From assembly GCF_947487605.1 (NCBI RefSeq), contig NZ_CANKXK010000004.1:124001-188000 (forward strand): a stretch of DNA of 64,000 nucleotides. Reading direction: 5' to 3'. Shown here one piece after another: positions 49,762 through 62,768 of the stretch. The notes under the pieces were generated by a model. It searched no databases. It was given only the letters and a program-made list of their open reading frames with translations, and was not told where the DNA came from. This DNA comes from an uncultured Algibacter sp. (GTDB lineage Bacteria; Bacteroidota; Bacteroidia; Flavobacteriales; Flavobacteriaceae). Positions within the stretch are counted from its first letter, which is position 1. Each line of letters begins with the position of its first letter. The translations under genes were made by a program, and so were the position numbers.

Positions 49762-50790
49762 TTATTTTATCAATACACTTTTGTATTTAGGTAAATTTTT
49801 AAGTGTTATTCCCGTTCCTCTTACTACAGCACGTAAAGGGTCTTCTGCAATATAAACGGGTAGGTCTGTTTTTTGAGATAGTCTTTTGTCTAATCCGCGT
49901 AACATAGATCCTCCACCTGCTAAATAGATACCAGTATTATATATATCTGCTGCTAATTCTGGAGGTGTTTGCGATAACGTTTCCATTACAGCATCTTCAA
50001 TTCTTAGTATTGATTTATCTAAAGCTTTAGCAATCTCGCGGTATGAAATTGATACTTGTTTTGGTTTTCCAGTTAATAAATCACGCCCTTGAACACTCAT
50101 GTCTTCTGGAGGTAATTCTAAATCTTCAGTTGCTGCACCAATCTGGATTTTAATTTTTTCAGCAGTACGTTCACCAACATATAAATTGTGTTGTGTTCGC
50201 ATGTAATAAACAATATCGTTGGTAAATACATCTCCTGCAATTTTAACCGATTTGTCGCATACAATACCACCTAAAGCAATAACAGCAATTTCTGTAGTAC
50301 CACCACCTATATCAACCACCATGTTTCCTTTAGGTTGCATGATGTCTACACCAATACCAATGGCAGCAGCCATAGGTTCATGTATTAAATAAACTTCTTT
50401 ACCATTAACACGTTCTGCACTTTCTTTTACGGCACGCATTTCTACTTCAGTAATACCGGATGGAATACAAATAACCATTCTAAGCGCTGGTGTGAAAAAC
50501 TTTTTCTTTAAAGCAGGTATATTTTTAATAAACATACTTATCATTTGTTCTGAGGCATCAAAATCGGCAATAACACCATCTTTTAACGGGCGAATTGTTT
50601 TGATGTTCTCATGAGTTTTTCCTTGCATTAAACTAGCTTCCTGTCCAACTGCAATAATTTTCCCCGTAGCTCTATTTCTTGCTACTATGGAAGGTGCATC
50701 TACAACAACCTTGTCGTTATGAATAATAAGTGTGTTTGCAGTACCTAAATCTATTGCAATATCTTCTGTTAGGAAGTCAAAAAAGCCCAT
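49762..50790 (-). CDS. mreB: Rod-shape-determining actin MreB
   Basis: A 342-residue actin-like ATPase that directs lateral wall synthesis. Phosphate motifs AIDLGTANTLI (12-22) and VVDIGGGTTEIAVI near 158 and the adenosine motif LAGGGSMLRGLDKRL near 291 are intact. An amphipathic N-terminus (MGFFDFLTED) fits membrane binding. It is the first gene of the mre-mrd operon. Its promoter must lie in the 169-bp gap to purH, where I do not see a convincing consensus. Confidence 0.97.
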   Translation of the reverse strand: MGFFDFLTEDIAIDLGTANTLIIHNDKVVVDAPSIVARNRATGKIIAVGQEASLMQGKTHENIKTIRPLKDGVIADFDASEQMISMFIKNIPALKKKFFTPALRMVICIPSGITEVEMRAVKESAERVNGKEVYLIHEPMAAAIGIGVDIMQPKGNMVVDIGGGTTEIAVIALGGIVCDKSVKIAGDVFTNDIVYYMRTQHNLYVGERTAEKIKIQIGAATEDLELPPEDMSVQGRDLLTGKPKQVSISYREIAKALDKSILRIEDAVMETLSQTPPELAADIYNTGIYLAGGGSMLRGLDKRLSQKTDLPVYIAEDPLRAVVRGTGITLKNLPKYKSVLIK

Positions 50791-50959
50791 GTGCTATAAC
50801 TGGTTTAAGAGGTTTAAAAACTAATCTTGTAAATGTAATAAAAGTTGATAAATATCTGTGACATTTATGTCTCATATATTTAACAAAATTCATTACTCTT
50901 TTATACGTTCAAACATCCTTTTTGGATGGCTTGAAATTATATTAATTCTGAAAGAAATT

Positions 50960-52492
50960 TTAGTGTTTAAAATGGCGTGTTCCTGTCATTACCATCGCTA
51001 CATCATTTTCATTGCAATAGTCAATACTAAGCTGGTCTTTAATAGAGCCTCCTGGTTGAATAACAGCGTTAATACCTGCGTTTTTAGCAATCTCAACGCA
51101 GTCTGGGAACGGAAAAAAAGCATCGCTTGCCATTGCAGCTCCATTTAAATCAAATTTAAAAGTGCCTGCTTTATGAATAGCTTGCTCTAATGCATCAACA
51201 CGACTAGTTTGTCCAGTACCACTTGCGCATAATTGTTTGTTTTTTGCTAAAACAATGGTGTTCGATTTAGTATGCTTGCAAATTTTTGATGCAAATAATA
51301 AATCTTCAATTTGAGCATTGGTTGGTGCAATATTTGTAACCGTTTTTAAATCTTCTGCTTTATCTGTTATGTTGTTTCTATCTTGAACTAGAACGCCATT
51401 TAAACAACTTCTAAGATTTGTTGCAGGCATATCAACATCGTGAATTTCTAATAAAATTCTATTTTTCTTTCCTTTTAAAATTTCTAGTGCTTCTGGATTA
51501 AAAGATGGCGCAATAACCACTTCACAGAATAATTTATGAATTTCTTCAGCGGTAGCTTTGTCAATTTCTTTGTTACTAATTAAAACGCCTCCAAATGCAG
51601 AAACTGGATCTCCAGCTAAGGCATCTAAATATGCTTGGTGCAATGATTCGCGTTGTGCTAGTCCACATGCATTGTTGTGTTTTAAAATCGCAAATGTTGG
51701 TGCGTCGTTTTTAAACTCTAGCATTAAATTAACGGCAGCGTCTACATCTAAAAGATTGTTATAACTTAATTCTTTACCGTGAAGTTTTGTGAATAATTCA
51801 TCAAAATTACCGAAGAAAAATCCTTTCTGGTGTGGATTCTCACCATAGCGTAAAACCTTACCATTAGTTTCGCTAATTTTTAAAACTGTTTCTTCATTAT
51901 TTTGGTTGAAATAATTAAAGATAGCAGTATCATAATGAGAAGATACATTAAATGCTTTGCCTGCAAAACGTTTTCTGTCTTCTTCAGAAATAGTGCCATT
52001 ATTTTCAGAAATTAAGTCTAAAAACTCAGCATAATCATCAACTGAAGAAACACAAATAACATCTGCATAATTTTTAGCAGCTGCTCTAATTAAAGAAATA
52101 CCACCTATATCTATTTTTTCAATAATATCTTGGTTACTTGCTCCAGAAGCTACAGTTTTTTCAAATGGGTACAAGTCAACAATCACAACATCTATTTGTG
52201 GGATTTCATATTCGGCTAATTCGGCAACATCGCCATCATGGTTTTGCCTATTTAAAATACCTCCAAATACTTTTGGATGCAAGGTTTTTACACGTCCGCC
52301 AAGTATTGAAGGGTAAGAAGTTACATCTTCAACAGGAACAACGTTAACGCCTAAATCGTTAATAAATTTTTCTGTGCCACCAGTAGAATATATGGTTACA
52401 CCCTGTTTGTCTAGTTCTTTTACGATAGGTTCTAAACCGTCTTTGCTAAATACAGAGATTAATGCCGATTTAATAGTTTTTTCGTTGCTCAT
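50960..52492 (-). CDS. purH: Bifunctional AICAR transformylase/IMP cyclohydrolase PurH
   Basis: A 510-residue enzyme for the last two steps of IMP synthesis. The N-terminal MGS-like cyclohydrolase domain covers about 1-190 (ALISVFSKDGLEPIVKEL and YSTGGTEKFI). The C-terminal transformylase domain carries KHNNACGLA near 270 and SDAFFPFPDCVE near 455, ending MTGTRHFKH. Length is normal. It is monocistronic as far as can be seen. The 252-bp region upstream contains a palindromic repeat and no gene. Confidence 0.97.
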   Translation of the reverse strand: MSNEKTIKSALISVFSKDGLEPIVKELDKQGVTIYSTGGTEKFINDLGVNVVPVEDVTSYPSILGGRVKTLHPKVFGGILNRQNHDGDVAELAEYEIPQIDVVIVDLYPFEKTVASGASNQDIIEKIDIGGISLIRAAAKNYADVICVSSVDDYAEFLDLISENNGTISEEDRKRFAGKAFNVSSHYDTAIFNYFNQNNEETVLKISETNGKVLRYGENPHQKGFFFGNFDELFTKLHGKELSYNNLLDVDAAVNLMLEFKNDAPTFAILKHNNACGLAQRESLHQAYLDALAGDPVSAFGGVLISNKEIDKATAEEIHKLFCEVVIAPSFNPEALEILKGKKNRILLEIHDVDMPATNLRSCLNGVLVQDRNNITDKAEDLKTVTNIAPTNAQIEDLLFASKICKHTKSNTIVLAKNKQLCASGTGQTSRVDALEQAIHKAGTFKFDLNGAAMASDAFFPFPDCVEIAKNAGINAVIQPGGSIKDQLSIDYCNENDVAMVMTGTRHFKH

Positions 52493-52681
52493 TATTAATT
52501 TTGTGTTGTGAATAAAATGCTCTTTTTTGGAATAAATTATGCTTGTTATTCAGCTATTTAAGCTAAAATTTATAAATAATGGCAAAAGTAGTTATTTCCT
52601 TTAAAAAACAAGTGTGGAAATCTTAAAAATGGAGTTGATTTTTTAACGAAAATAATGAGTTGTTAACAATGTGAAGTTTTT

Positions 52682-52713
52682 AGACCTAGCAGTTTTTTAA
52701 AACTTATCGGGTC
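52682..52713. repeat. Palindromic intergenic repeat
   Basis: AGACCTAGCAGTTTT (52682-52696) is followed by TT and AAAACT, ending with CGGGTCT at 52713. It forms a long imperfect hairpin with outer arms AGACC/GGTCT and inner arms AGTTTT/AAAACT. This pattern resembles a palindromic repeat seen between genes in many flavobacteria. It lies after the stop of the sulfoxide reductase gene and could also act as a terminator. Confidence 0.5.
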
Positions 52714-52744
52714 TTTGAGTTTTAGAATTATGAAATTGGATTTT

Positions 52745-53203
52745 TCAAGAAAGAATTTCAGAAACTTTTTTGCAAACAAACTCTAAAAAACGTTCATCTG
52801 CTTGAGTAAATGGGTCAGGTGTATTAGAATCTATATCTATCTGCCCAATGTTTTCTCCATTCACAAAAATAGGTATAACAATTTCTGCTTTAACCGTTAT
52901 GCTACAGGCAATGTAATTATCTTGAGCAGATACATCTGGAACAACAAAATTTTCATTACTTACAGCTACTTGTCCGCAAATACCTTTACCAAAAGGAATT
53001 ACTGTATGGTCTGTTGGTTCGCCTACATAAGGCCCTAAAAGTAACTCTTCTTTATCTCCATTTTTAAAATAAAAGCCTACCCAATTATAATAATCTACAT
53101 GAGCTTCAAGTAATTTGCAGATATTTTTTAAGCGCGTCTCAACTGTTTCGCTAGCATTTGAAACAATAGTTTCTACTTGTGGTTTTAGTTGTTCAAAAAT
53201 CAT
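52745..53203 (-). CDS. GAF-domain free methionine-(R)-sulfoxide reductase-like protein
   Basis: A 152-residue single GAF domain of the fRMsr type, which reduces free methionine R-sulfoxide. The motifs GFYFKNG, LGPYVGEPTDH, FGKGICGQVA, VPDVSAQDNYIACS and IGQIDIDSNTPDPFT follow the family order. Cys76 and Cys100 align with Cys94 and Cys118 of the E. coli enzyme. The position of the third, Cys84, is not Cys here (Thr64/Asp65 region). It may therefore use a two-cysteine mechanism. It is divergent from xrtF. Confidence 0.85.
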   Translation of the reverse strand: MIFEQLKPQVETIVSNASETVETRLKNICKLLEAHVDYYNWVGFYFKNGDKEELLLGPYVGEPTDHTVIPFGKGICGQVAVSNENFVVPDVSAQDNYIACSITVKAEIVIPIFVNGENIGQIDIDSNTPDPFTQADERFLEFVCKKVSEILS

Positions 53204-53215
53204 AAATGAGAAAGT

Positions 53216-53248
53216 TTTGGTAAAAGTATTTAAAAAGGTGTAATTTCG
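53216..53248 (+). promoter_or_regulatory. Putative promoter of the xrtF transcript
   Basis: TTTG (53216-53219) is followed after 21 bases by TAATTTCG (53241-53248), one mismatch from TAnnTTTG. Spacing fits Bacteroidota promoters. The xrtF TTG start is 33 bp downstream. Confidence 0.5.
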
Positions 53249-53281
53249 ATATTGAGTTATTAAAAAAAATAATAATACTTT

Positions 53282-53827
53282 TTGAAGGCACTCTTTGTAA
53301 AATATAAGTCGGTTATTAAATTCATTCTTACATTTTTATTGGTGTATATAATCTTTTCATTGTTGTATCAGTTTTATTTAAAAACTTCTACAGGACTAAG
53401 GTTTTATCCAGATTATATTACAAATTTGGTTTCAAAACAAACAGAATTATTAATAAGAATTTTTGGGTATGATGCAGAGGTTATTCCTCATCAAAGCGAG
53501 CCTTCCATGAAATTACTAATTAATGGGAAGTATTTAGCACGTGTTATTGAAGGATGTAACTCAATAAGTGTTATTATCTTATTTGCTTCTTTTGTTATTG
53601 CTTTTTCAGGCAAATTAAAAGAAACGATAGTCTTTTTGTTATCTGGGAGTGTTTTAATTTATGTAGTTAATTTACTCAGAATTGTTATACTATCAATTGG
53701 AATGTATCGCTATCCATGGCGTAGAGAAATTTTACATACCGTAGTTTTTCCAGCTATTATTTATGGTATCGTTTTTATTCTTTGGATAATATGGGTAAAT
53801 CGTTTTTCTAAAAAGAGGAGAATATGA
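53282..53827 (+). CDS. xrtF: Exosortase family protein XrtF
   Basis: A 181-residue membrane protein of the exosortase/archaeosortase superfamily. These are transpeptidase-like enzymes that process C-terminal sorting signals of exported proteins. The catalytic triad is visible as Cys92 in EGCNS, Arg133 in NLLRI and His152 in REILHT. About five membrane helices are present. XrtF is the small flavobacterial form. Its start is a TTG at 53282, 33 bp after a candidate promoter. It overlaps the next gene by ATGA. No gene with an obvious sorting signal is nearby. Confidence 0.93.
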   Translation: MKALFVKYKSVIKFILTFLLVYIIFSLLYQFYLKTSTGLRFYPDYITNLVSKQTELLIRIFGYDAEVIPHQSEPSMKLLINGKYLARVIEGCNSISVIILFASFVIAFSGKLKETIVFLLSGSVLIYVVNLLRIVILSIGMYRYPWRREILHTVVFPAIIYGIVFILWIIWVNRFSKKRRI

Positions 53828-54252
53828 ATAGAAATATAAAATATATGCTTCTGTTTTTATTATTTGGGCTGTTGATATTAATTCGATTTTTTGAAAACGA
53901 ACTTTTCTACGATCCCTACCTTGTCTTTTTTCAAAACGATTATCTGTACATAGATAATCCTAGAAGAGAAGTTTTTAAGTTGACTTTATTTACATCACTT
54001 AGGTATGTGCTTAACAGTATTATTTCTTTAGGTATTTTGTTCGTTATTTTTAAAGATAAGAGCATGATTAAATTTGCGGCGTTTATTTATTTAATGGCAT
54101 TAATTGTATTGCTTTTTATTTATCTTTATTTTGTTGTAAATCCGCGTCAAGAAGACTATTATATGTTTTTTAACGTGCGTCGTTTTCTTATTCAGCCTAT
54201 TATTTTAATTATTTTATTGCCTGCTTTTTATTACCATAGGCTTAAAACGTAA
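53824..54252 (+). CDS. Exosortase F system-associated protein
   Basis: A 142-residue membrane protein with four hydrophobic helices (about 5-22, 55-75, 82-102 and 118-136). Between the first two is a periplasmic loop with NELFYDPYLVFFQND and NPRREVFKLTLFTSLRYVLN. The same organisation is found beside XrtF in other flavobacteria, where the protein is named only for that association. Its start overlaps the xrtF stop. Its role in the sorting system is unknown. Confidence 0.9.
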   Translation: MNRNIKYMLLFLLFGLLILIRFFENELFYDPYLVFFQNDYLYIDNPRREVFKLTLFTSLRYVLNSIISLGILFVIFKDKSMIKFAAFIYLMALIVLLFIYLYFVVNPRQEDYYMFFNVRRFLIQPIILIILLPAFYYHRLKT

Positions 54253-54309
54253 ATGTTAATCATTTAATAAATTAATCATCATCATTTCGATTTTTTGTAC
54301 TTTTGTATT

Positions 54310-54711
54310 GTGATAAAGCAATTGTTTTATAAAAGTTTTTCAATGCTTCTGGCATTACTGGTTTTGTTTTCTACCGTATCTTTTACTGTAGAGAAGCATT
54401 TTTGTGGTGATGTTTTAGTAGATGTTTCTGTTTTTGCAGATGTTGAAAAATGTGCCATGGAAGCTATGGAAATGAAGCAAAAGAAATCCTGCTGTAAAGA
54501 TGAAGTAGAAGTTGTAAAAGGTCAAGATGACTTGAAGTTTAGTTCTTTTGAAGATTTAGATTTTGAACAAGAACAATTTTTAACTGCTTTTGCTTACTCA
54601 TACATTAATCTATTTGAAGGTTTGCCAAAGCAAATTATTCCTCATAAAGATTATTCTCCTCCTAATTTAATTCAAGACATACAAGTTTTGGATGAAGTCT
54701 TTTTAATTTGA
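54310..54711 (+). CDS. HYC_CC_PP family exported protein
   Basis: About 133 residues from the GTG at 54310, giving a signal peptide (MIKQLFYKSF then a hydrophobic run to VSF). A TTG at 54295 and an ATG at 54343 are alternatives; a TAnnTTTG-like box at 54298-54305 overlaps the upstream ones and favours a start no earlier than 54310. The name motifs are visible: HFC at 30-32, SCC at 60-62 and SPPN near 116. The cysteines suggest metal binding. It heads a metal-handling cassette with an HMA-MauE protein, a TonB receptor and an HMA protein. Confidence 0.85.
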   Translation: MIKQLFYKSFSMLLALLVLFSTVSFTVEKHFCGDVLVDVSVFADVEKCAMEAMEMKQKKSCCKDEVEVVKGQDDLKFSSFEDLDFEQEQFLTAFAYSYINLFEGLPKQIIPHKDYSPPNLIQDIQVLDEVFLI

Positions 54712-54793
54712 ATTATTAATTTATGTTAAGTAATTCTTGTGAAAACAGGAATCTATTTCTTTTTACATAACACAAATTAATAATAAAATAATC

Positions 54794-55516
54794 ATGAAAC
54801 ATACATATACAGTTACAGGAATGACCTGTAATGGCTGTAAAACTTCAGTAGAAGAAAAGCTAAGTAATATAGAAGGTATTACCCATGTAACAGTAAATTT
54901 AGAAAAAGCTGAAGCTCTAATAGAAATGACTAAACATATTTCTATTGAAACTTTACAAAATGCTATTTCTGGGAAGTATAAAATTTCTGAAAAGAATATT
55001 TTTCAAACTACGGTTACATTAGATCAAGAGAAAAAAAGTGAGTTGCAACAATTGTTTCCACTATTTTTAATTTTCTTTTTTATTATAGGGGCTTCAATAT
55101 TATTAAACTATAATCCTTGGAATAGTGAAGCATTTATGCTTGATTTTATGGGTTTGTTCTACGTTGTTTTTAGTTTTTTTAAATTTTTAGATTTAAAAGG
55201 TTTTCCTGAATCTTTTAAAATGTACGATCCTTTGGCTAAGGTAGTTCCTGTTTATGCATGGGGCTATCCATTCATAGAAATTACATTAGGAATTATGTTT
55301 TTAATGCGTCTTGAAATTTTAGTAGCTTTAATTATTACTCTTGTTATTTTAGGACTCACAACTATTGGAGTTACCAAAACACTGCTAAGTAAAAAGGATA
55401 TTCAATGTGCTTGTTTGGGTACTGCATTAAAGCTCCCAATGACAAAAGCGACTTTTATTGAAAATAGTATCATGATTGTTATGGCAATTATTATGCTTAT
55501 AAAGACCTACAATTAG
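54794..55516 (+). CDS. HMA domain fused to MauE/DoxX-like membrane domain
   Basis: A 240-residue fusion. Residues 1-65 are a heavy-metal-associated domain with the GMTCNGC motif (Cys12 and Cys15). Residues 85-240 contain four membrane helices of the MauE/DoxX redox-associated type, with a Cys205-Ala-Cys207 pair in IQCACLG at the start of the last helix. A metal ion could be handed between the soluble and membrane cysteines. It abuts the TonB-dependent receptor gene with no gap (the receptor ATG is the next base), so they are coupled. The metal is probably copper or a similar soft ion. Confidence 0.87.
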   Translation: MKHTYTVTGMTCNGCKTSVEEKLSNIEGITHVTVNLEKAEALIEMTKHISIETLQNAISGKYKISEKNIFQTTVTLDQEKKSELQQLFPLFLIFFFIIGASILLNYNPWNSEAFMLDFMGLFYVVFSFFKFLDLKGFPESFKMYDPLAKVVPVYAWGYPFIEITLGIMFLMRLEILVALIITLVILGLTTIGVTKTLLSKKDIQCACLGTALKLPMTKATFIENSIMIVMAIIMLIKTYN

Positions 55517-57760
55517 ATGAAATATATATATTACATAATACTAATGCTTCCTTTACTTATGTCTTCTCAAGATAAGATTACAGGTATGATAATGGAAGCG
55601 AATGCAAAAAACGAACATATAGGCTTAGTAGGAGCTAATATCTATTGGTTAGATACAACTGTAGGAACAGTTACCAATATTGATGGGAAATTTACGCTCT
55701 CATACAAGCCAGAGTATAAAAAATTGGTGATAAGCTATGTTGGATTTAAAACAGATACACTAACCATTAGCGATCCTAAAAAAATGGTACATCATTGGTT
55801 ACAACCTACAAGTGATTTGGGTCAAGTTACAGTTACTTCTAGAAAACAGACAACAGCAAAATCTTATTTAAAAGCACAAAATGTAATTACAGTTAGTAGC
55901 GATGAATTGTTGAAAGCTGCTTGCTGTAATCTATCAGAAAGTTTTGAAACAAATCCGTCAATCGATGTTAATTTTGCCGATGCGGTTTCAGGAACACGCC
56001 AGATTAAAATGCTTGGGCTTACAAGTCCCTACATATTAATAGCTACTGAAAATATTCCATCTATTAGAGGGGCATCTCAGGCTTATGGATTGAGTTTTAT
56101 ACCAGGAACTTGGGTGGAAAGTATTCAAATTACTAAAGGTGCTGGTTCTGTAGTGAATGGTTTTGAAAGTATTGCGGGACAAATAAATGCTGAATTGGTT
56201 AAGCCTTCAACAGACGACAAGTTGTTTGTTAACCTATATGGAGCAACCAATGAGCGTTTGGAGTTAAATACACACTTCAATACCAAAGTAAACGATAGGT
56301 GGCATACTGGTTTATATGTGCACGGAAACACACATAACAAAAAGCATGATGTGAATAGCGATGGGTTTTTAGATATGCCCTTGTTTAACCAAATTAATCT
56401 TATGAATCGCTGGCAATATATAGATACTCAAAGTGGATTTGTAAGCTTTGTTAATTTAAAATTTTTAAATGATGAAAAACAAATGGGCGAGCTAAACTTT
56501 AATCCAAATACAGATAAGCTTACCATGAATGCTTGGGGTAGTGAAATTGATACAAGGCGTTACGAATTGTCTGGTAAATTTGGTTATGTAAACCCTGAGA
56601 TTCCTTGGCAAAGCCTTGGTGTTCAAACAGCGTTTAGTAGTCATAAGCAAGACTCGTATTTTGGCTTAAATAGCTACGATATAGTACATAATAGTCTATA
56701 TGCTAATGCTATTTATAATTCTATAATTAGTGATTCTAGACATAAAATAAAAACAGGAATAAGTTATACTTACGACCATTATGACGAACTAGTAAATACT
56801 ACAGATTACGAAAGAACCGAAAATTCGATTGGAGGTTTTTTTGAATATAGTTTTGACAATTTGGAACTTTTAAACCTTACTGCAGGAATTAGAATAGACC
56901 ATCATAATTTGTTAGGAACTTTTATAACGCCACGTGTACATGTGCGATATTCACCTTGGAGTAAATCGGCATTTAGAGCATCCTTTGGAAGAGGGAAGCG
57001 TAGTGCTAATATTTTTACTGAAAATCAGCAACTATTTGCTACATCAAGACAAATTAATATTCTAAATTCTGGTGGTGATATTTATGGATTAGATCCAGAA
57101 ATTGCATGGAATTATGGCGTTTCATATTTGCAAGGATTTAATTTATTTGGAAGTAAAGCAGATATCACTTTAGATTTTTACAAAACCGATTTTACAAATC
57201 AAGTAGTTGTAGATTGGGAAAATTCACAGGAAATAAATTTTTATAACCTTGAAGGGAAAAGTTATGCTAATAGTTTTCAAGTAGAGTTTAATTATAATCC
57301 ATTTGGGCATTTCGATTTAAGAATGGCTTATAAGTATTACGATGTTAAAACAGATTATAACTCTGGACGATTGGAAAGACCCTTAACACCAAAAAATCGT
57401 GTGTTTGTTAATGTTGGCTATAAAACACCACAAGATGAAGAGCAACTAGGGCGTTGGAAGTTTGATGCTACTTTTAATTGGTTAAGCGACCAACGTTACA
57501 CATCGACAATAAATAATCCTGCACAGTATCAATTACCAGAGAGAACGCCAACAGTAGCAACGTTAAATGCGCAAATAACAAAAGTATTTTCTCCAAAATT
57601 TGAAGTATATTTAGGAGGTGAAAACATTACAAATGTGAGACAACCAAATCCTATTTTGGGAGCCGATGACCCTTTTGGTGCGAATTTTGATTCTACTTTT
57701 GTATATGGTCCAATTTTTGGAAGTATGTATTATATGGGATTACGATTTAGAATAAAATAA
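55517..57760 (+). CDS. TonB-dependent receptor, putative metal uptake
   Basis: A 747-residue outer membrane receptor. After a signal peptide (cleavage near SSQ) comes a carboxypeptidase-like regulatory domain (about 21-100), the plug (about 112-235) and the 22-strand barrel ending in LRFRIK. The plug begins with an uncommon adjacent pair Cys136-Cys137 in LLKAACCNLSESF, found in a receptor subclass that lies next to HMA proteins. A SusD partner is absent, so polysaccharide uptake is unlikely. Metal or metal-chelate import is inferred from the neighbours. Confidence 0.9.
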   Translation: MKYIYYIILMLPLLMSSQDKITGMIMEANAKNEHIGLVGANIYWLDTTVGTVTNIDGKFTLSYKPEYKKLVISYVGFKTDTLTISDPKKMVHHWLQPTSDLGQVTVTSRKQTTAKSYLKAQNVITVSSDELLKAACCNLSESFETNPSIDVNFADAVSGTRQIKMLGLTSPYILIATENIPSIRGASQAYGLSFIPGTWVESIQITKGAGSVVNGFESIAGQINAELVKPSTDDKLFVNLYGATNERLELNTHFNTKVNDRWHTGLYVHGNTHNKKHDVNSDGFLDMPLFNQINLMNRWQYIDTQSGFVSFVNLKFLNDEKQMGELNFNPNTDKLTMNAWGSEIDTRRYELSGKFGYVNPEIPWQSLGVQTAFSSHKQDSYFGLNSYDIVHNSLYANAIYNSIISDSRHKIKTGISYTYDHYDELVNTTDYERTENSIGGFFEYSFDNLELLNLTAGIRIDHHNLLGTFITPRVHVRYSPWSKSAFRASFGRGKRSANIFTENQQLFATSRQINILNSGGDIYGLDPEIAWNYGVSYLQGFNLFGSKADITLDFYKTDFTNQVVVDWENSQEINFYNLEGKSYANSFQVEFNYNPFGHFDLRMAYKYYDVKTDYNSGRLERPLTPKNRVFVNVGYKTPQDEEQLGRWKFDATFNWLSDQRYTSTINNPAQYQLPERTPTVATLNAQITKVFSPKFEVYLGGENITNVRQPNPILGADDPFGANFDSTFVYGPIFGSMYYMGLRFRIK

Positions 57761-57778
57761 AGAATTATATTAACAATC

Positions 57779-57859
57779 TGTCATTCCTGCAAAGGCAGGA
57801 AACTATTAAATTTAAAGCAAATAACTTAAAAGTGGATTCCTGCCTTCACAGGAATGACA
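57779..57859. repeat. 81-bp element with inverted terminal repeats
   Basis: It begins TGTCATTCCTGCAAAGGCAG and ends CCTTCACAGGAATGACA. The outer 11 bases TGTCATTCCTG and CAGGAATGACA are perfect inverted repeats, and inner CTGC/GCAG pairs extend the hairpins. It fills most of the gap between the TonB receptor and the HMA gene. It resembles a dispersed palindromic repeat common in Bacteroidota. Confidence 0.7.
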
Positions 57860-57879
57860 AAAATATAAAACAAACAAAT

Positions 57880-58251
57880 ATGAAAAACATAATTATTGTA
57901 GCATTAATGTTTATTGGAACAGTAACATTTGCTCAAAGTAAAAATGCCAAGGCTTCTATGGAAGTAGATGGTGTTTGTGGGATGTGCAAAGCACGTATTG
58001 AAAAAGCATGTTTAAACACTAAAGGTGTTAAGTTTGCAACTTGGGATATTGATACCCATCAATTAGATCTAATCTATGATGCTCGTAAAACAAATTCCGA
58101 AATTATTAAAAATCAAGTTTTAGCTGTTGGTCATGATGTTCAAGATACAAAAGCAACCGATGAAGCTTACGCAACAGTTCATGCTTGCTGTAAGTATCGA
58201 GATGAAGATGTGCAAGATGATCATAAGGCGGAGGAAAAAGAAGATAACTAG
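57880..58251 (+). CDS. Periplasmic heavy-metal-associated (HMA) protein
   Basis: A 123-residue protein from the ATG at 57880, which gives a clean signal peptide (MKNIIIVALMFIGTVTFAQ). A longer in-frame start at 57832 would lie inside the repeat element. The mature part is an HMA domain (about 24-88) with GVCGMCKARIEKAC (Cys33, Cys36, Cys44) and a second cysteine pair, Cys103-Cys104, in HACCKYRDED. The tail is acidic and His-containing. It probably binds and passes on the metal imported by the adjacent receptor. Confidence 0.9.
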   Translation: MKNIIIVALMFIGTVTFAQSKNAKASMEVDGVCGMCKARIEKACLNTKGVKFATWDIDTHQLDLIYDARKTNSEIIKNQVLAVGHDVQDTKATDEAYATVHACCKYRDEDVQDDHKAEEKEDN

Positions 58252-58266
58252 GTATATTAAAATATT

Positions 58267-58632
58267 ATGAAAACGACACCTGAGCATAATGAACGTGTTA
58301 GAACGATGAAGTTTTTTTCAGTTTACCCACATTATGTCAATAAAGTGGAGAAAAAAGGAAGAACGAAAGAAGAGTTGCATACGGTAATTAATTGGTTAAC
58401 AGGATTTACCGATGATAAAATAAAAGAACTCATAGACCGAAAAGTAACATTTGAACAGTTTTTCCAAGAGGCCGAAGTTAATCCAAATGCAGAATTAATT
58501 AAAGGTGTTATATGTGGTTATAGAATTGAAGAAATCGATAACCTTTTAACTAAACAATGTAGATATTTGGATAAATTGATTGATGAATTGGCCAGAGGTA
58601 GAAAAATGGAAAAGATTTTACGAACTACTTAA
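58267..58632 (+). CDS. DUF2200 domain-containing protein
   Basis: A 121-residue cytoplasmic protein matching DUF2200 over its whole length. Features include RVRTMKFFSVYPHYVNKVEKKG at the start (first part of the family signature), VINWLTGF near 40 and VICGYRIEEI near 79. The function of the family is unknown. It lies 15 bp after the HMA gene and may be transcribed with it, but nothing links it to metals. A bidirectional terminator separates it from convergent groEL. Confidence 0.85.
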   Translation: MKTTPEHNERVRTMKFFSVYPHYVNKVEKKGRTKEELHTVINWLTGFTDDKIKELIDRKVTFEQFFQEAEVNPNAELIKGVICGYRIEEIDNLLTKQCRYLDKLIDELARGRKMEKILRTT

Positions 58633-58658
58633 AGAATAAAGTTAAGATTTATAATCAA

Positions 58659-58693
58659 AAAAAAACGCTTCAAAATAAATTGAAGCGTTTTTA
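58659..58693. terminator. Bidirectional terminator between DUF2200 gene and groEL
   Basis: AAACGCTTCAA (58663-58673) pairs with TTGAAGCGTTT (58680-58690) in a perfect 11-bp stem with a 6-base loop. The minus-strand side has a nine-base T run, and the plus side has TTTTT. Confidence 0.88.
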
Positions 58694-58719
58694 TTATAAT
58701 TTGCATGTCGAGGCTCTTC

Positions 58720-60366
<1,647 letters not shown>

Positions 60367-60477
60367 TTAAAATTTTTAAATCTCAATTTTCAAATACCAA
60401 ATTTCAAAAAAAGGAAACTGATTATTTGAGTGAGAATTTTTGGGATTTTGTTTTTTTAAGTTTTTTGAGATTTGCAA

Positions 60478-60753
60478 TTAGATAATTGCTAGTATATCAC
60501 TCTCACGCATGATTAAATAATCATTACCTTCAAGCTTAAGTTCTGTTCCTGCATATTTACCATATAAAACAGTGTCTCCAACTTTTACGGTAATAGGTTC
60601 GTCTTTTGTGCCTTTTCCAGCAGCTACTACAGTACCTTTTTGAGGTTTTTCTTTTGCGTTATCTGGAATAATAATTCCTGAAGCTGTTTTTGTTTCAGCA
60701 GCAGCGGGTTCAATAAGAACACGATCTGCTAATGGTTTAATGTTTAATGCCAT
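60478..60753 (-). CDS. groS: Co-chaperonin GroES
   Basis: A 91-residue co-chaperonin that caps Gro[18 protein letters not shown] is the canonical N-terminal strand. The mobile loop [21 protein letters not shown] follows, then [11 protein letters not shown] and [13 protein letters not shown]. Length is slightly under the 97 residues of E. coli. It is the first gene of groES-groEL. Upstream there is no CIRCE element but a 16-bp palindrome at 60783-60798. Confidence 0.97.
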
Positions 60754-60782
60754 TGTTTATATTTATATTTTAAAATTAAATT

Positions 60783-60798
60783 TAACGCTTAAGCGTTA
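60783..60798. promoter_or_regulatory. Perfect 16-bp palindrome upstream of groES
   Basis: TAACGCTTAAGCGTTA is perfectly symmetrical and lies 30-45 bp before the groES start codon, in the leader or promoter region. It does not match CIRCE. It may be an operator for a different heat-shock repressor, or chance. Confidence 0.4.
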
Positions 60799-60865
60799 TG
60801 CTAAAAATGTGCCAATAGTTAGTAACTGACAAACTTTCAGACCTGTCTCTAGGATAGCCAAGAAC

Positions 60866-60902
60866 AAAAAATGCCAACTTGTACAAGTTGGCATTTTTTG
60901 TT
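60866..60902 (-). terminator. Intrinsic terminator after secG
   Basis: AAAAAATGCCAACTTG (60865-60880) and its mirror TACAAGTTGGCATTTTTT form a fully palindromic hairpin, 12 bp in the ATGCCAACTTGT/ACAAGTTGGCAT stem, with T runs on both strands. It lies 17 bp beyond the secG stop and insulates the groES promoter. Confidence 0.88.
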
Positions 60903-60918
60903 TTTTTATGAAGCACAA

Positions 60919-61284
60919 TTATTGTGCAGAATCTGTTGCTGTAGTTGCTTCTGGTAATGTTGTTGTTCCTGCATCGGTAGGAACTGCTGGTAAAGGTTGT
61001 GATGTTGTAGCATCTGGGTCTAATGCTTTAGAATCTATATTTTCAGAGCCTCTATTAATGGCTACATTAGAAAGTAAAATTAAAACTAACAAAAGCGTTG
61101 CTAATGTCCAGGTGCTTTTATCTAAAAAGTCTGTTGTTTTCTTTACGCCTCCTAATTGTTGTGTGCCACCACCACCAAAAGACGACGATAATCCACCTCC
61201 TTTAGGGTTTTGCACCATCACTACAACTATAAGCAAAAATGCTACTACTACTATAAGTGCTAAAAATATTGTAAACGTACTCAT
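60919..61284 (-). CDS. secG: Preprotein translocase subunit SecG
   Basis: A 121-residue inner membrane protein with two helices (about 5-25 and 56-75). Between them is the conserved SecG loop VMVQNPKGGGLSSSFGGGGTQQLGGVKKTTDFLDKST in outline. SecG assists SecYE in protein export. The C-terminal 40 residues are low-complexity, rich in Thr, Ala and Asp, as in other Bacteroidota SecG. It is 6 bp downstream of the TPR-like gene. Confidence 0.95.
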   Translation of the reverse strand: MSTFTIFLALIVVVAFLLIVVVMVQNPKGGGLSSSFGGGGTQQLGGVKKTTDFLDKSTWTLATLLLVLILLSNVAINRGSENIDSKALDPDATTSQPLPAVPTDAGTTTLPEATTATDSAQ

Positions 61285-61290
61285 TATTCT

Positions 61291-62241
61291 TTATTTATTC
61301 TGTTCTTGTAATTGTTCTACTGCCTTAATTTGGTTTGCAAAGAAACTACTTTTTTCTGGATATTTCAAACTTAAAATTTTATAAGATTGAATTGCTTTTT
61401 TGTAGTTTTTTTGCTCAACATAAATACGCGCTAAAGTCTCTGTCATTAACGCTTCGGGTTGTATCATTTGTGCCTTCGCTAAATTGCCTTTTGGCGATGG
61501 CGATTTCGATGGATTTATCTTTGGGTTTTTAGCAATAAATTTATCTATTAGCTGAAATTTTTTTGCCTTTTCAGATACTGGCGAAATTTGCTCTTTTACT
61601 TCTGGACTTTCTGGTTTTTTATTTCCTGATCTATCAATGGGTTTAAAACGTGTCAATTTTAGCCATTCGTTAAAAGAATGTGTTTCACTTTTATCAAACT
61701 GCAGGGGTTTACCTAAACTTAAAATATCTTCGGCTGTTGCTTCTTGTGTTCTAGTTTCTTCAGTAACGTTTTCAATAAGTTTCGATTCGTCTAAAGTAAA
61801 AGCAATTGTTTTTTTAGGAAGCGCATCTTTAGGTTCAAAAAGAGCAGGGTCTAAAACACCTTGAGTTTCTTGAATTTGTTGTTTAAGCGCTTCATCAATA
61901 GCAACGCTTTTGTTAATTGAAATGTCTTCAATATTTACATTAATATCTTTTAAATGCGCTGTATTTTGTTTAATAAACTGCGAAATTTCATTTTGTATAA
62001 AACTGTCTGATGTTATAAAATCGAATAAAATGCTCCTATCGGTAGTATAAGCAGCGGTCGTTTTAAGTTCTTCATTATATTTAATGCTACTCTGGTTTTT
62101 TAAACCTTTAAGGTAAATAGCACGAGCCGATTGAAAATATGGATAGGTATCAATAATAGATTTTACTGCTTCAGTCTGCTCATGCGTTATAGACTGCGGA
62201 TGCTGAAGTATGTACGTAAAACTATTACTATTTTCTACCAT
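61291..62241 (-). CDS. Tetratricopeptide-like hypothetical protein
   Basis: A 316-residue protein without a signal peptide. The N-terminal part (about 10-90, YILQHPQSITHEQTEAVKSI and YPYFQSARAIYLKGLK) looks like a helical repeat. The middle is charged and poorly ordered. The C-terminus (about 262-310, TETLARIYVEQKNYKKAIQSYKIL) is a recognisable TPR unit. Function is unknown, but its place between lptE and secG is conserved in flavobacteria, which suggests an envelope role. It overlaps lptE by 7 bp. Confidence 0.85.
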   Translation of the reverse strand: MVENSNSFTYILQHPQSITHEQTEAVKSIIDTYPYFQSARAIYLKGLKNQSSIKYNEELKTTAAYTTDRSILFDFITSDSFIQNEISQFIKQNTAHLKDINVNIEDISINKSVAIDEALKQQIQETQGVLDPALFEPKDALPKKTIAFTLDESKLIENVTEETRTQEATAEDILSLGKPLQFDKSETHSFNEWLKLTRFKPIDRSGNKKPESPEVKEQISPVSEKAKKFQLIDKFIAKNPKINPSKSPSPKGNLAKAQMIQPEALMTETLARIYVEQKNYKKAIQSYKILSLKYPEKSSFFANQIKAVEQLQEQNK

Positions 62242-62768
62242 CTAGCTAGGGTTGCATTAAAAATGTCTTGTGTTAGTCTATCTAGTATTTCTTCGTGTGC
62301 AGTTGCTTTTTGTGAGCCAATAAGTTGTGCACTTCCTGGATAATCGAAGAAAAATGAAAAGGTCTTATTTTCTAGATTGTCTTCTTCTTTATTTCTATTG
62401 TAAAAACTAATTTTTACTGAGATAGTCAACCTATTTTGTGCTGCGGTATTTTGTGATGTAGAGGTGGTTGGTGAAATTCTATATTCGCTAATTTCACCTT
62501 CGTATACCAAGTCTGGATTTGATGAAACTAGATTTAAATTGGTTTGATTTTGAATTAAATCTTCAAGTGTTATTTTGAAATCCCTTTCAAGCCCTGGTTC
62601 AACTAAAATAGCATTGTTTTCGAAACGAACAACTTGGAAGGTGTCTGCCTCAATTGAATTAGGCTGTGTGAAACCGTATTGAACTTTACAATTAACAAGA
62701 ATTACTGTCGCTACTAGTAAAAAAAAGAAATATTTTAGTTTGTTCATTTTATTTAACATGTTTCTCAC
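62235..62768 (-). CDS. lptE: LPS assembly lipoprotein LptE-like protein
   Basis: A 177-residue predicted lipoprotein: hydrophobic signal, then ATVILVNCKVQYGF with the lipobox Cys. The mature protein has the LptE-like pattern (TFQVVRFENNAILVEPGLERDFKITLEDLI, then VYEGEISEYRISP). LptE plugs the LptD barrel that inserts LPS into the outer membrane. A second ATG at 62756 or 62747 could be the true start. It lies 32 bp downstream of the sigma-54 activator. Confidence 0.88.
   Translation of the reverse strand: MRNMLNKMNKLKYFFFLLVATVILVNCKVQYGFTQPNSIEADTFQVVRFENNAILVEPGLERDFKITLEDLIQNQTNLNLVSSNPDLVYEGEISEYRISPTTSTSQNTAAQNRLTISVKISFYNRNKEEDNLENKTFSFFFDYPGSAQLIGSQKATAHEEILDRLTQDIFNATLARW

Follow-up and report, generated by a model that had tools for sequence, protein, structure and literature searches.

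Few outer-membrane transporters of copper are known, and the tested ones are proteobacterial, according to the portion of PMC12914433 available to us. In the same portion, CrtA (BfrG of B. pertussis) is a copper TonB-dependent receptor linked to copper enzymes, and its family is mostly beta- and gamma-proteobacterial with a conserved ligand site around His358. The OprC-type copper site is CxxxM-HxM. An OprC-like TonB receptor with this site has been proposed for copper uptake in Bizionia argentinensis, in a study that did not take up the remaining TonB proteins of the genome (accessible text of PMC11213822). Here, we describe four consecutive genes in a 64,000-nucleotide stretch of an uncultured Algibacter sp. 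genome (the window; contig NZ_CANKXK010000004.1, positions 124,001 to 188,000). They encode a cysteine-rich HYC_CC_PP protein (HYC), an HMA-MauE fusion, a TonB-dependent receptor with a cysteine pair (CC) near the start of its plug, and an exported HMA protein (HMA2). With a probability of roughly 55%, we read them as a Bacteroidota envelope copper cassette that combines uptake by the TonB receptor, a thiol relay to HMA2 and a step at the inner membrane. The observations behind this reading are the gene set, the conservation of its cysteines, receptor-HMA fusions, the exchange of proteins in one slot and the association with copper-type genes.

The window receptor resembles OprC of P. aeruginosa in that both are TonB-dependent receptors proposed or shown to act on copper. 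However, it contains neither CxxxM nor HxM, and a PDB search with the receptor profile gave 16 matches, none of which is an OprC chain. The receptor of Bizionia argentinensis is a flavobacterial candidate for a copper TonB receptor, but its CxxxM-HxM, as described in the accessible text (PMC11213822), is not in the window receptor. Unlike the window receptor, CrtA is described with neither an HMA partner nor a cysteine pair in the available part of the paper, and by the descriptions given there the window receptor lies, as far as seen, outside the groups discussed for CrtA (PMC12914433). We regard it as a candidate copper-type TonB receptor, distinguished by the cysteine pair in its plug and by its HMA partner.

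MerTP and MerT/CopZ fusions join an HMA domain to a small membrane carrier, as HMA-MauE does. However, HMA-MauE scores below the fusion cut-offs (39.2 against 180 for MerTP NF033556, 14.1 against 375 for NF045683), with the match lying in the HMA part. The CusCFBA/HME-RND operons of Bacteroidota share HYC with the cassette and, in some loci, HMA-MauE together with AraC-type regulators. The cassette of the window differs from these operons in its TonB receptor and in the lack of an RND pump; no RND gene is present among the listed open reading frames of positions 50000-62500. No description of the cassette was found in the open-access literature, and it looks like an undescribed copper-handling route at the Bacteroidota cell surface.

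The four genes share a strand, with an exosortase pair (XrtF, 53282-54252) on one side and DUF2200/GroEL on the other, and have the following features:

54255..54259, + strand: GTTAA element, a candidate regulator site 43 nt upstream of the -7 box, based on position statistics in relatives
54298..54305, + strand: TACTTTTG, a Bacteroidota-type -7 box (TANNTTTG) directly preceding the HYC GTG start
54310..54711, + strand: HYC_CC_PP protein, GTG start, 133 amino acids, hydrophobic N-terminus (NF047658, E 3.5e-40, 137.5 bits, cut-off 28)
54794..55516, + strand: HMA-MauE fusion, 240 amino acids, HMA domain (CxxC) at the N-terminus followed by a MauE membrane part that bears CAC (PF00403, 43.3 bits, cut-off 24.8; PF07291, 65.3 bits, cut-off 27)
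55517..57760, + strand: TonB-dependent receptor, 747 amino acids, CarbopepD_reg_2, plug and barrel (PF13715, 48.3 bits, cut-off 32.2; PF07715, 33 bits, cut-off 23.9)
55922..55927, + strand: Cys136-Cys137 codons (AACCNLSESF), close to where the plug domain starts, invariant in aligned relatives
57880..58251, + strand: exported HMA protein HMA2, 123 amino acids, signal-like N-terminus, CxxC, CC in the C-terminal part (PF00403, 30.8 bits, cut-off 24.8)

The original prediction of four consecutive genes with metal-type cysteines agrees with this list in all genes and all named cysteines. HYC carries Cys 32, 48, 61 and 62 (HFC and SCC), and HMA-MauE carries Cys 12 and 15 (GMTCNGC) and 205 and 207 (CAC). 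Cys 136 and 137 (AACC) are the only cysteines of the receptor, and HMA2 has Cys 33 and 36 (CGMC), 44, and 103 and 104 (ACC). The original prediction also noted the lack of an adjacent ATPase pump or metal regulator, which is true of the window. In some relatives, however, an ATPase or an AraC-type regulator adjoins the cassette.

The receptor family and its HMA partners

Relatives of the receptor (E 1e-60 or better) were collected from a phylum sample of 296 genomes, and all 78 loci outside the window were fetched. The receptor is found in 79 of these Bacteroidota genomes, its own included, and in 51 of 140 genera. ACC is kept in 76 of the 78 receptors outside the window. The two without CC (L114 and L115) are the most distant, with 28% and 25% identity, and their loci also lack HYC and HMA matches. 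Since an earlier alignment of 44 receptor rows omitted these two, its CC invariance was partly by choice, and 76/78 is the full count. Cys136 and Cys137 are invariant in 61/61 aligned receptors (window plus 60 of the 77 available). A second set, the named relatives, comprises the 80 best-scoring loci from a scan of genome contigs. It is mostly or wholly from Flavobacteriaceae and includes Algibacter luteus (84% identity), Formosa, Polaribacter, Tenacibaculum, Maribacter and Flavobacterium. CC is present in 77 of the 80; in the remaining three, the contig begins within the receptor gene. Judged by sequence conservation, CC characterises a receptor family that spans the phylum. The expectation that CC is unusual for this receptor class was right within the window's own genome, in which 30 of the 37 other plug matches (38 in total) were read and none of the 30 has CC, but it does not extend to this family.

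The receptor is rarely found alone. Among the 76 CC receptors, HYC is nearby in 61, an HMA2-type protein in 55, both in 47 and either of them, close and on the same strand, in 69. A small cysteine-rich CC protein is encoded upstream in six of the other seven. A widespread CC receptor without HMA neighbours, or cysteines that vary, would have spoken against the predicted cassette; the survey gave neither result, and the cysteines of all four proteins are conserved in the alignments. HYC lies at most three genes upstream of the receptor in 71 of the 80 named relatives. HMA2 immediately follows the receptor in 76, and two of the four loci where it does not are cut off at a contig edge. A stop codon breaks the receptor frame of L096, a relative in which HYC and HMA2 are intact. 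Chance adjacency was considered and rejected: a small cysteine-rich CC open reading frame precedes 73 of the 76 CC receptors, as opposed to 70 of 491 other genes of the same loci. A search of plasmids matched 6 of 72,556 records and does not indicate a widespread mobile element.

In the predicted structure of the receptor, the strands of a C-terminal beta barrel extend across residues 236-746, mostly with a predicted local distance difference test score (pLDDT) above 70, and no Pfam barrel model gives a match. No close solved structure was found among the PDB matches. The best of them spans the N-terminal 240 residues, and its plug lacks CC in the printed alignment.

Cys 33, 36, 103 and 104 are present in 37/37 HMA2 proteins (window plus 36 of 76). 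Nine receptors (L060, L065, L066, L068-L073) begin with HMA2-type HMA domains before the plug, one domain in three receptors and two in six. The N-terminus of a TonB receptor faces the periplasm, and because HMA is fused there, HMA2 most likely acts in the periplasm beside the plug. These fusions are the strongest hint that the receptor may hand over its own cargo. The start of HMA2 is most likely ATG 57880 and not the listed GTG 57832, since the latter lies inside a repeat and relatives' HMA2 begins at the equivalent of 57880. This intergenic repeat, with GTCATTCCTG ... CAGGAATGAC arms, occupies 57780-57861 in the gap between receptor and HMA2. Proteins with a YHS domain (two loci) or HMBD (one locus) adjoin the receptor in L084 (8214-8555), L104 (8244-8642) and L039 (8712-9077), relatives in which HMA2 is missing or supplemented.

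The inner-membrane slot

Full-length HMA-MauE is present in 25 of the 80 named relatives, in 17 between HYC and the receptor as in the window and in eight downstream of HMA2. Its Cys 12, 15, 205 and 207 are found in 20/20 proteins (window plus 19 of 25). The structure model has a mean pLDDT of 84.6, and Foldseek returned no match at E 0.001 or better. The membrane part gives a weak match to the DoxX-like four-helix fold of NACHO/TMEM35A (9h9e_B; root-mean-square deviation 3.1, 114 residues aligned), with a Z of 11.5 where 13 is advised for helical bundles. The CAC loop has the highest positive charge among the loops (mean K+R 3.3, versus 0.1-2.7). Because of this charge and because the HMA domain has no signal peptide, both cysteine sites of HMA-MauE are probably cytosolic.

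In six loci, a P-type ATPase of about 830 amino acids fills the slot just upstream of the receptor (L162, L177, L187, L190 and L197 among the named relatives, L043 in the phylum sample). These ATPases carry the same type of N-terminal HMA domain as HMA-MauE, and all six have CPC and MSFSS. Pfam assigns HMA, HMBD and E1-E2 ATPase domains to the three that were checked (L043, L162, L187). The two that were scored, L043 and L177, reach 577 and 587 bits on the copper-translocating ATPase model TIGR01511 (cut-off 397). Among named models, those of CopZ match the cassette's HMA domains best, with scores under the cut-offs, and MerP and ZntA models are also matched weakly.

The same machinery could handle another soft metal, such as mercury, silver, zinc or cadmium. 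The MerP and ZntA matches are in line with this, and CusA-type pumps and HMBD proteins, which occur in related loci, also handle silver. We consider another metal improbable because the CopZ models are the best for the HMA domains and TIGR01511 outscores the cadmium model. Moreover, mer genes were not seen next to any of the 80 named receptors, whose neighbours were not scanned systematically for mer. The cysteines may alternatively serve thiol redox chemistry or structure, with a disulfide in the plug or MauE as a redox partner, and not a metal relay. MauE-type proteins are linked to disulfide formation, and exactly two adjacent cysteines in the receptor could make a vicinal disulfide. There is a slim chance that this explains the cassette: most relatives lack HMA-MauE yet keep CC, the CxxC motifs are located in HMA folds, and copper ATPases take the place of HMA-MauE.

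Cus-type efflux loci and promoter elements

In HYC, Cys 32, 61 and 62 are present in 33/33 proteins and Cys 48 in at least 90% (window plus 32 of 69). Away from the receptor, 20 chosen HYC loci were read, in one of which (L135) the model used for HYC detected no such gene. In all 19 that remain, HYC is upstream of a CusA-type RND gene, usually with CusC and HMBD-bearing CusB-like genes. The two RND proteins that were scored (L119 and L125) pass TIGR00914 CusA/CzcA. Another of these loci, L124, lacks the receptor and has HYC and a Cus-type operon downstream of XrtF and its partner, which is the place of the window's receptor cassette.

Full-length HMA-MauE occurs in 18 of the 296 genomes, in three of them beside the receptor. 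The other 15 loci have an AraC-type regulator at most three open reading frames upstream in 11, HYC in four and CusA/HMBD genes in some. The AraC-type regulators (L216, L218-L220, L222-L228) have a CxxC-like stretch in the N-terminal region, and in the two tested, Pfam matches the helix-turn-helix part only. It is possible that they are metal sensors. The genes associated with HYC and HMA-MauE make copper or silver a better candidate than iron.

The promoter box TANNTTTG is found in 67 of 74 regions upstream of HYC, whereas shuffled sequences give a mean of 11.3 and a maximum of 25, and in the window it touches the HYC start. Going by this box, the cassette has its own promoter. Because the box abuts the start, HYC is probably read from a very short leader, apart from the exosortase genes. 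Of the 62 cassette HYC promoters in the named relatives, 30 have GTTAA at -46..-39 relative to the box, compared with 5 of 211 promoters that belong to other genes in these loci. At -31/-32, GTTAA is found in 7 of 10 Cus-HYC promoters of the same family, compared with 1 of 211. Both windows were picked after the data had been viewed and the sequences are related, so that p-values overstate the difference. The seven are L116, L118-L120, L122, L124 and L128, and the window cassette has the element at -43. A single element at the same place in both promoter classes was rejected, since GTTAA occurs at -46..-39 in 0/10 same-family and 0/8 other Cus-HYC promoters. The two positions are 11-12 bp apart, about one helical turn, and a shared regulator with different geometry at cassette and Cus-HYC promoters is possible.

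The cassette might belong to a copper-stress regulon with Cus efflux, in which HYC and HMA2 sequester copper while the receptor imports other cargo or signals. Such a role in defence or sensing is consistent with HYC heading CusA-type operons, with the AraC-type regulators (11/15 loci), CusA/HMBD genes and HYC near HMA-MauE elsewhere, and with GTTAA at fixed positions in both promoter classes. It also suits L124, whose HYC-Cus operon takes the XrtF-adjacent place where others have HYC and the receptor. We regard this role as rather unlikely. The HMA-receptor fusions favour hand-over of the receptor's own cargo, the offset of GTTAA means that regulation may differ, and, to our knowledge, TonB receptors import by every known precedent.

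A possible copper route across the envelope

In the envelope cassette that we favour, the receptor would take free or chelated copper through the outer membrane in a TonB-driven step. Once TonB opens the plug, copper would move by thiol exchange, aided by Cys136-Cys137, to the periplasmic HMA2 chaperone with its CxxC and CC. HMA2 and the exported, cysteine-rich HYC would form a periplasmic copper buffer. At the inner membrane, copper would be moved or sensed by a membrane protein whose HMA domain is cytosolic (HMA-MauE, or a copper-type P-type ATPase in some relatives). That the cassette handles copper seems fairly secure, with copper indicated by association. We infer which metal is carried, its inward direction, its relay by the cysteines and what HMA-MauE does. 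The soft-metal path from the outer to the inner membrane in the original prediction fits this scheme, and the neighbourhoods of relatives support copper; what speaks against it is that HMA-MauE is optional and the HMA2-type protein can be missing.

Several observations weigh against copper uptake or do not help to decide on it. An HMA2-type neighbour is absent from 21 of the 76 CC receptor loci, mainly in distant families. HYC and HMA-MauE are also found with efflux genes, a pattern compatible with copper defence and with uptake alike. Scores of the slot ATPases on the cadmium family model TIGR01512 exceed its cut-off too, but are lower than on TIGR01511. The pLDDT of the plug is below 50 at residues 131-227 of the AlphaFold model, and the position of CC was therefore not taken from it. 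Parabacteroides distasonis, an anaerobe, has a receptor with CC and a neighbouring HMA protein; its small upstream cysteine-rich protein does not match NF047658. The heme-copper oxidase profile PF00115 is matched in 285 of the 296 genomes (78 of 79 with the receptor versus 207 of 217 others), and since it is nearly universal in this sample, it is uninformative on copper demand. PF00115 is not matched in G238, a genome with the receptor. Copper defence is kept as the main rival because of the sharing with efflux, G238, P. distasonis, the low-confidence plug, and a metal and direction that are inferred.

A more specific form of the uptake scheme is a chaperone-coupled receptor, in which the plug pair would pass copper directly to a dedicated HMA metallochaperone of the periplasm, docked on the receptor or fused to it, so that copper is never free there. 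We propose this tentatively, at somewhat less than even odds. If it is true, copper import throughout the phylum would follow a route that differs from OprC, CrtA and MbnT. More generally, a CC-marked receptor with a partner HMA chaperone, which is sometimes fused, would make copper entry in Bacteroidota directly testable. Names and a function would be gained for genes that are at present annotated as hypothetical, HYC_CC_PP or generic TonB receptor.

In some relatives (L046, L044 and others), a protein of about 451 amino acids, assigned to the MBL fold by its motifs, and a partner of about 276 amino acids are encoded between the XrtF pair and the cassette.

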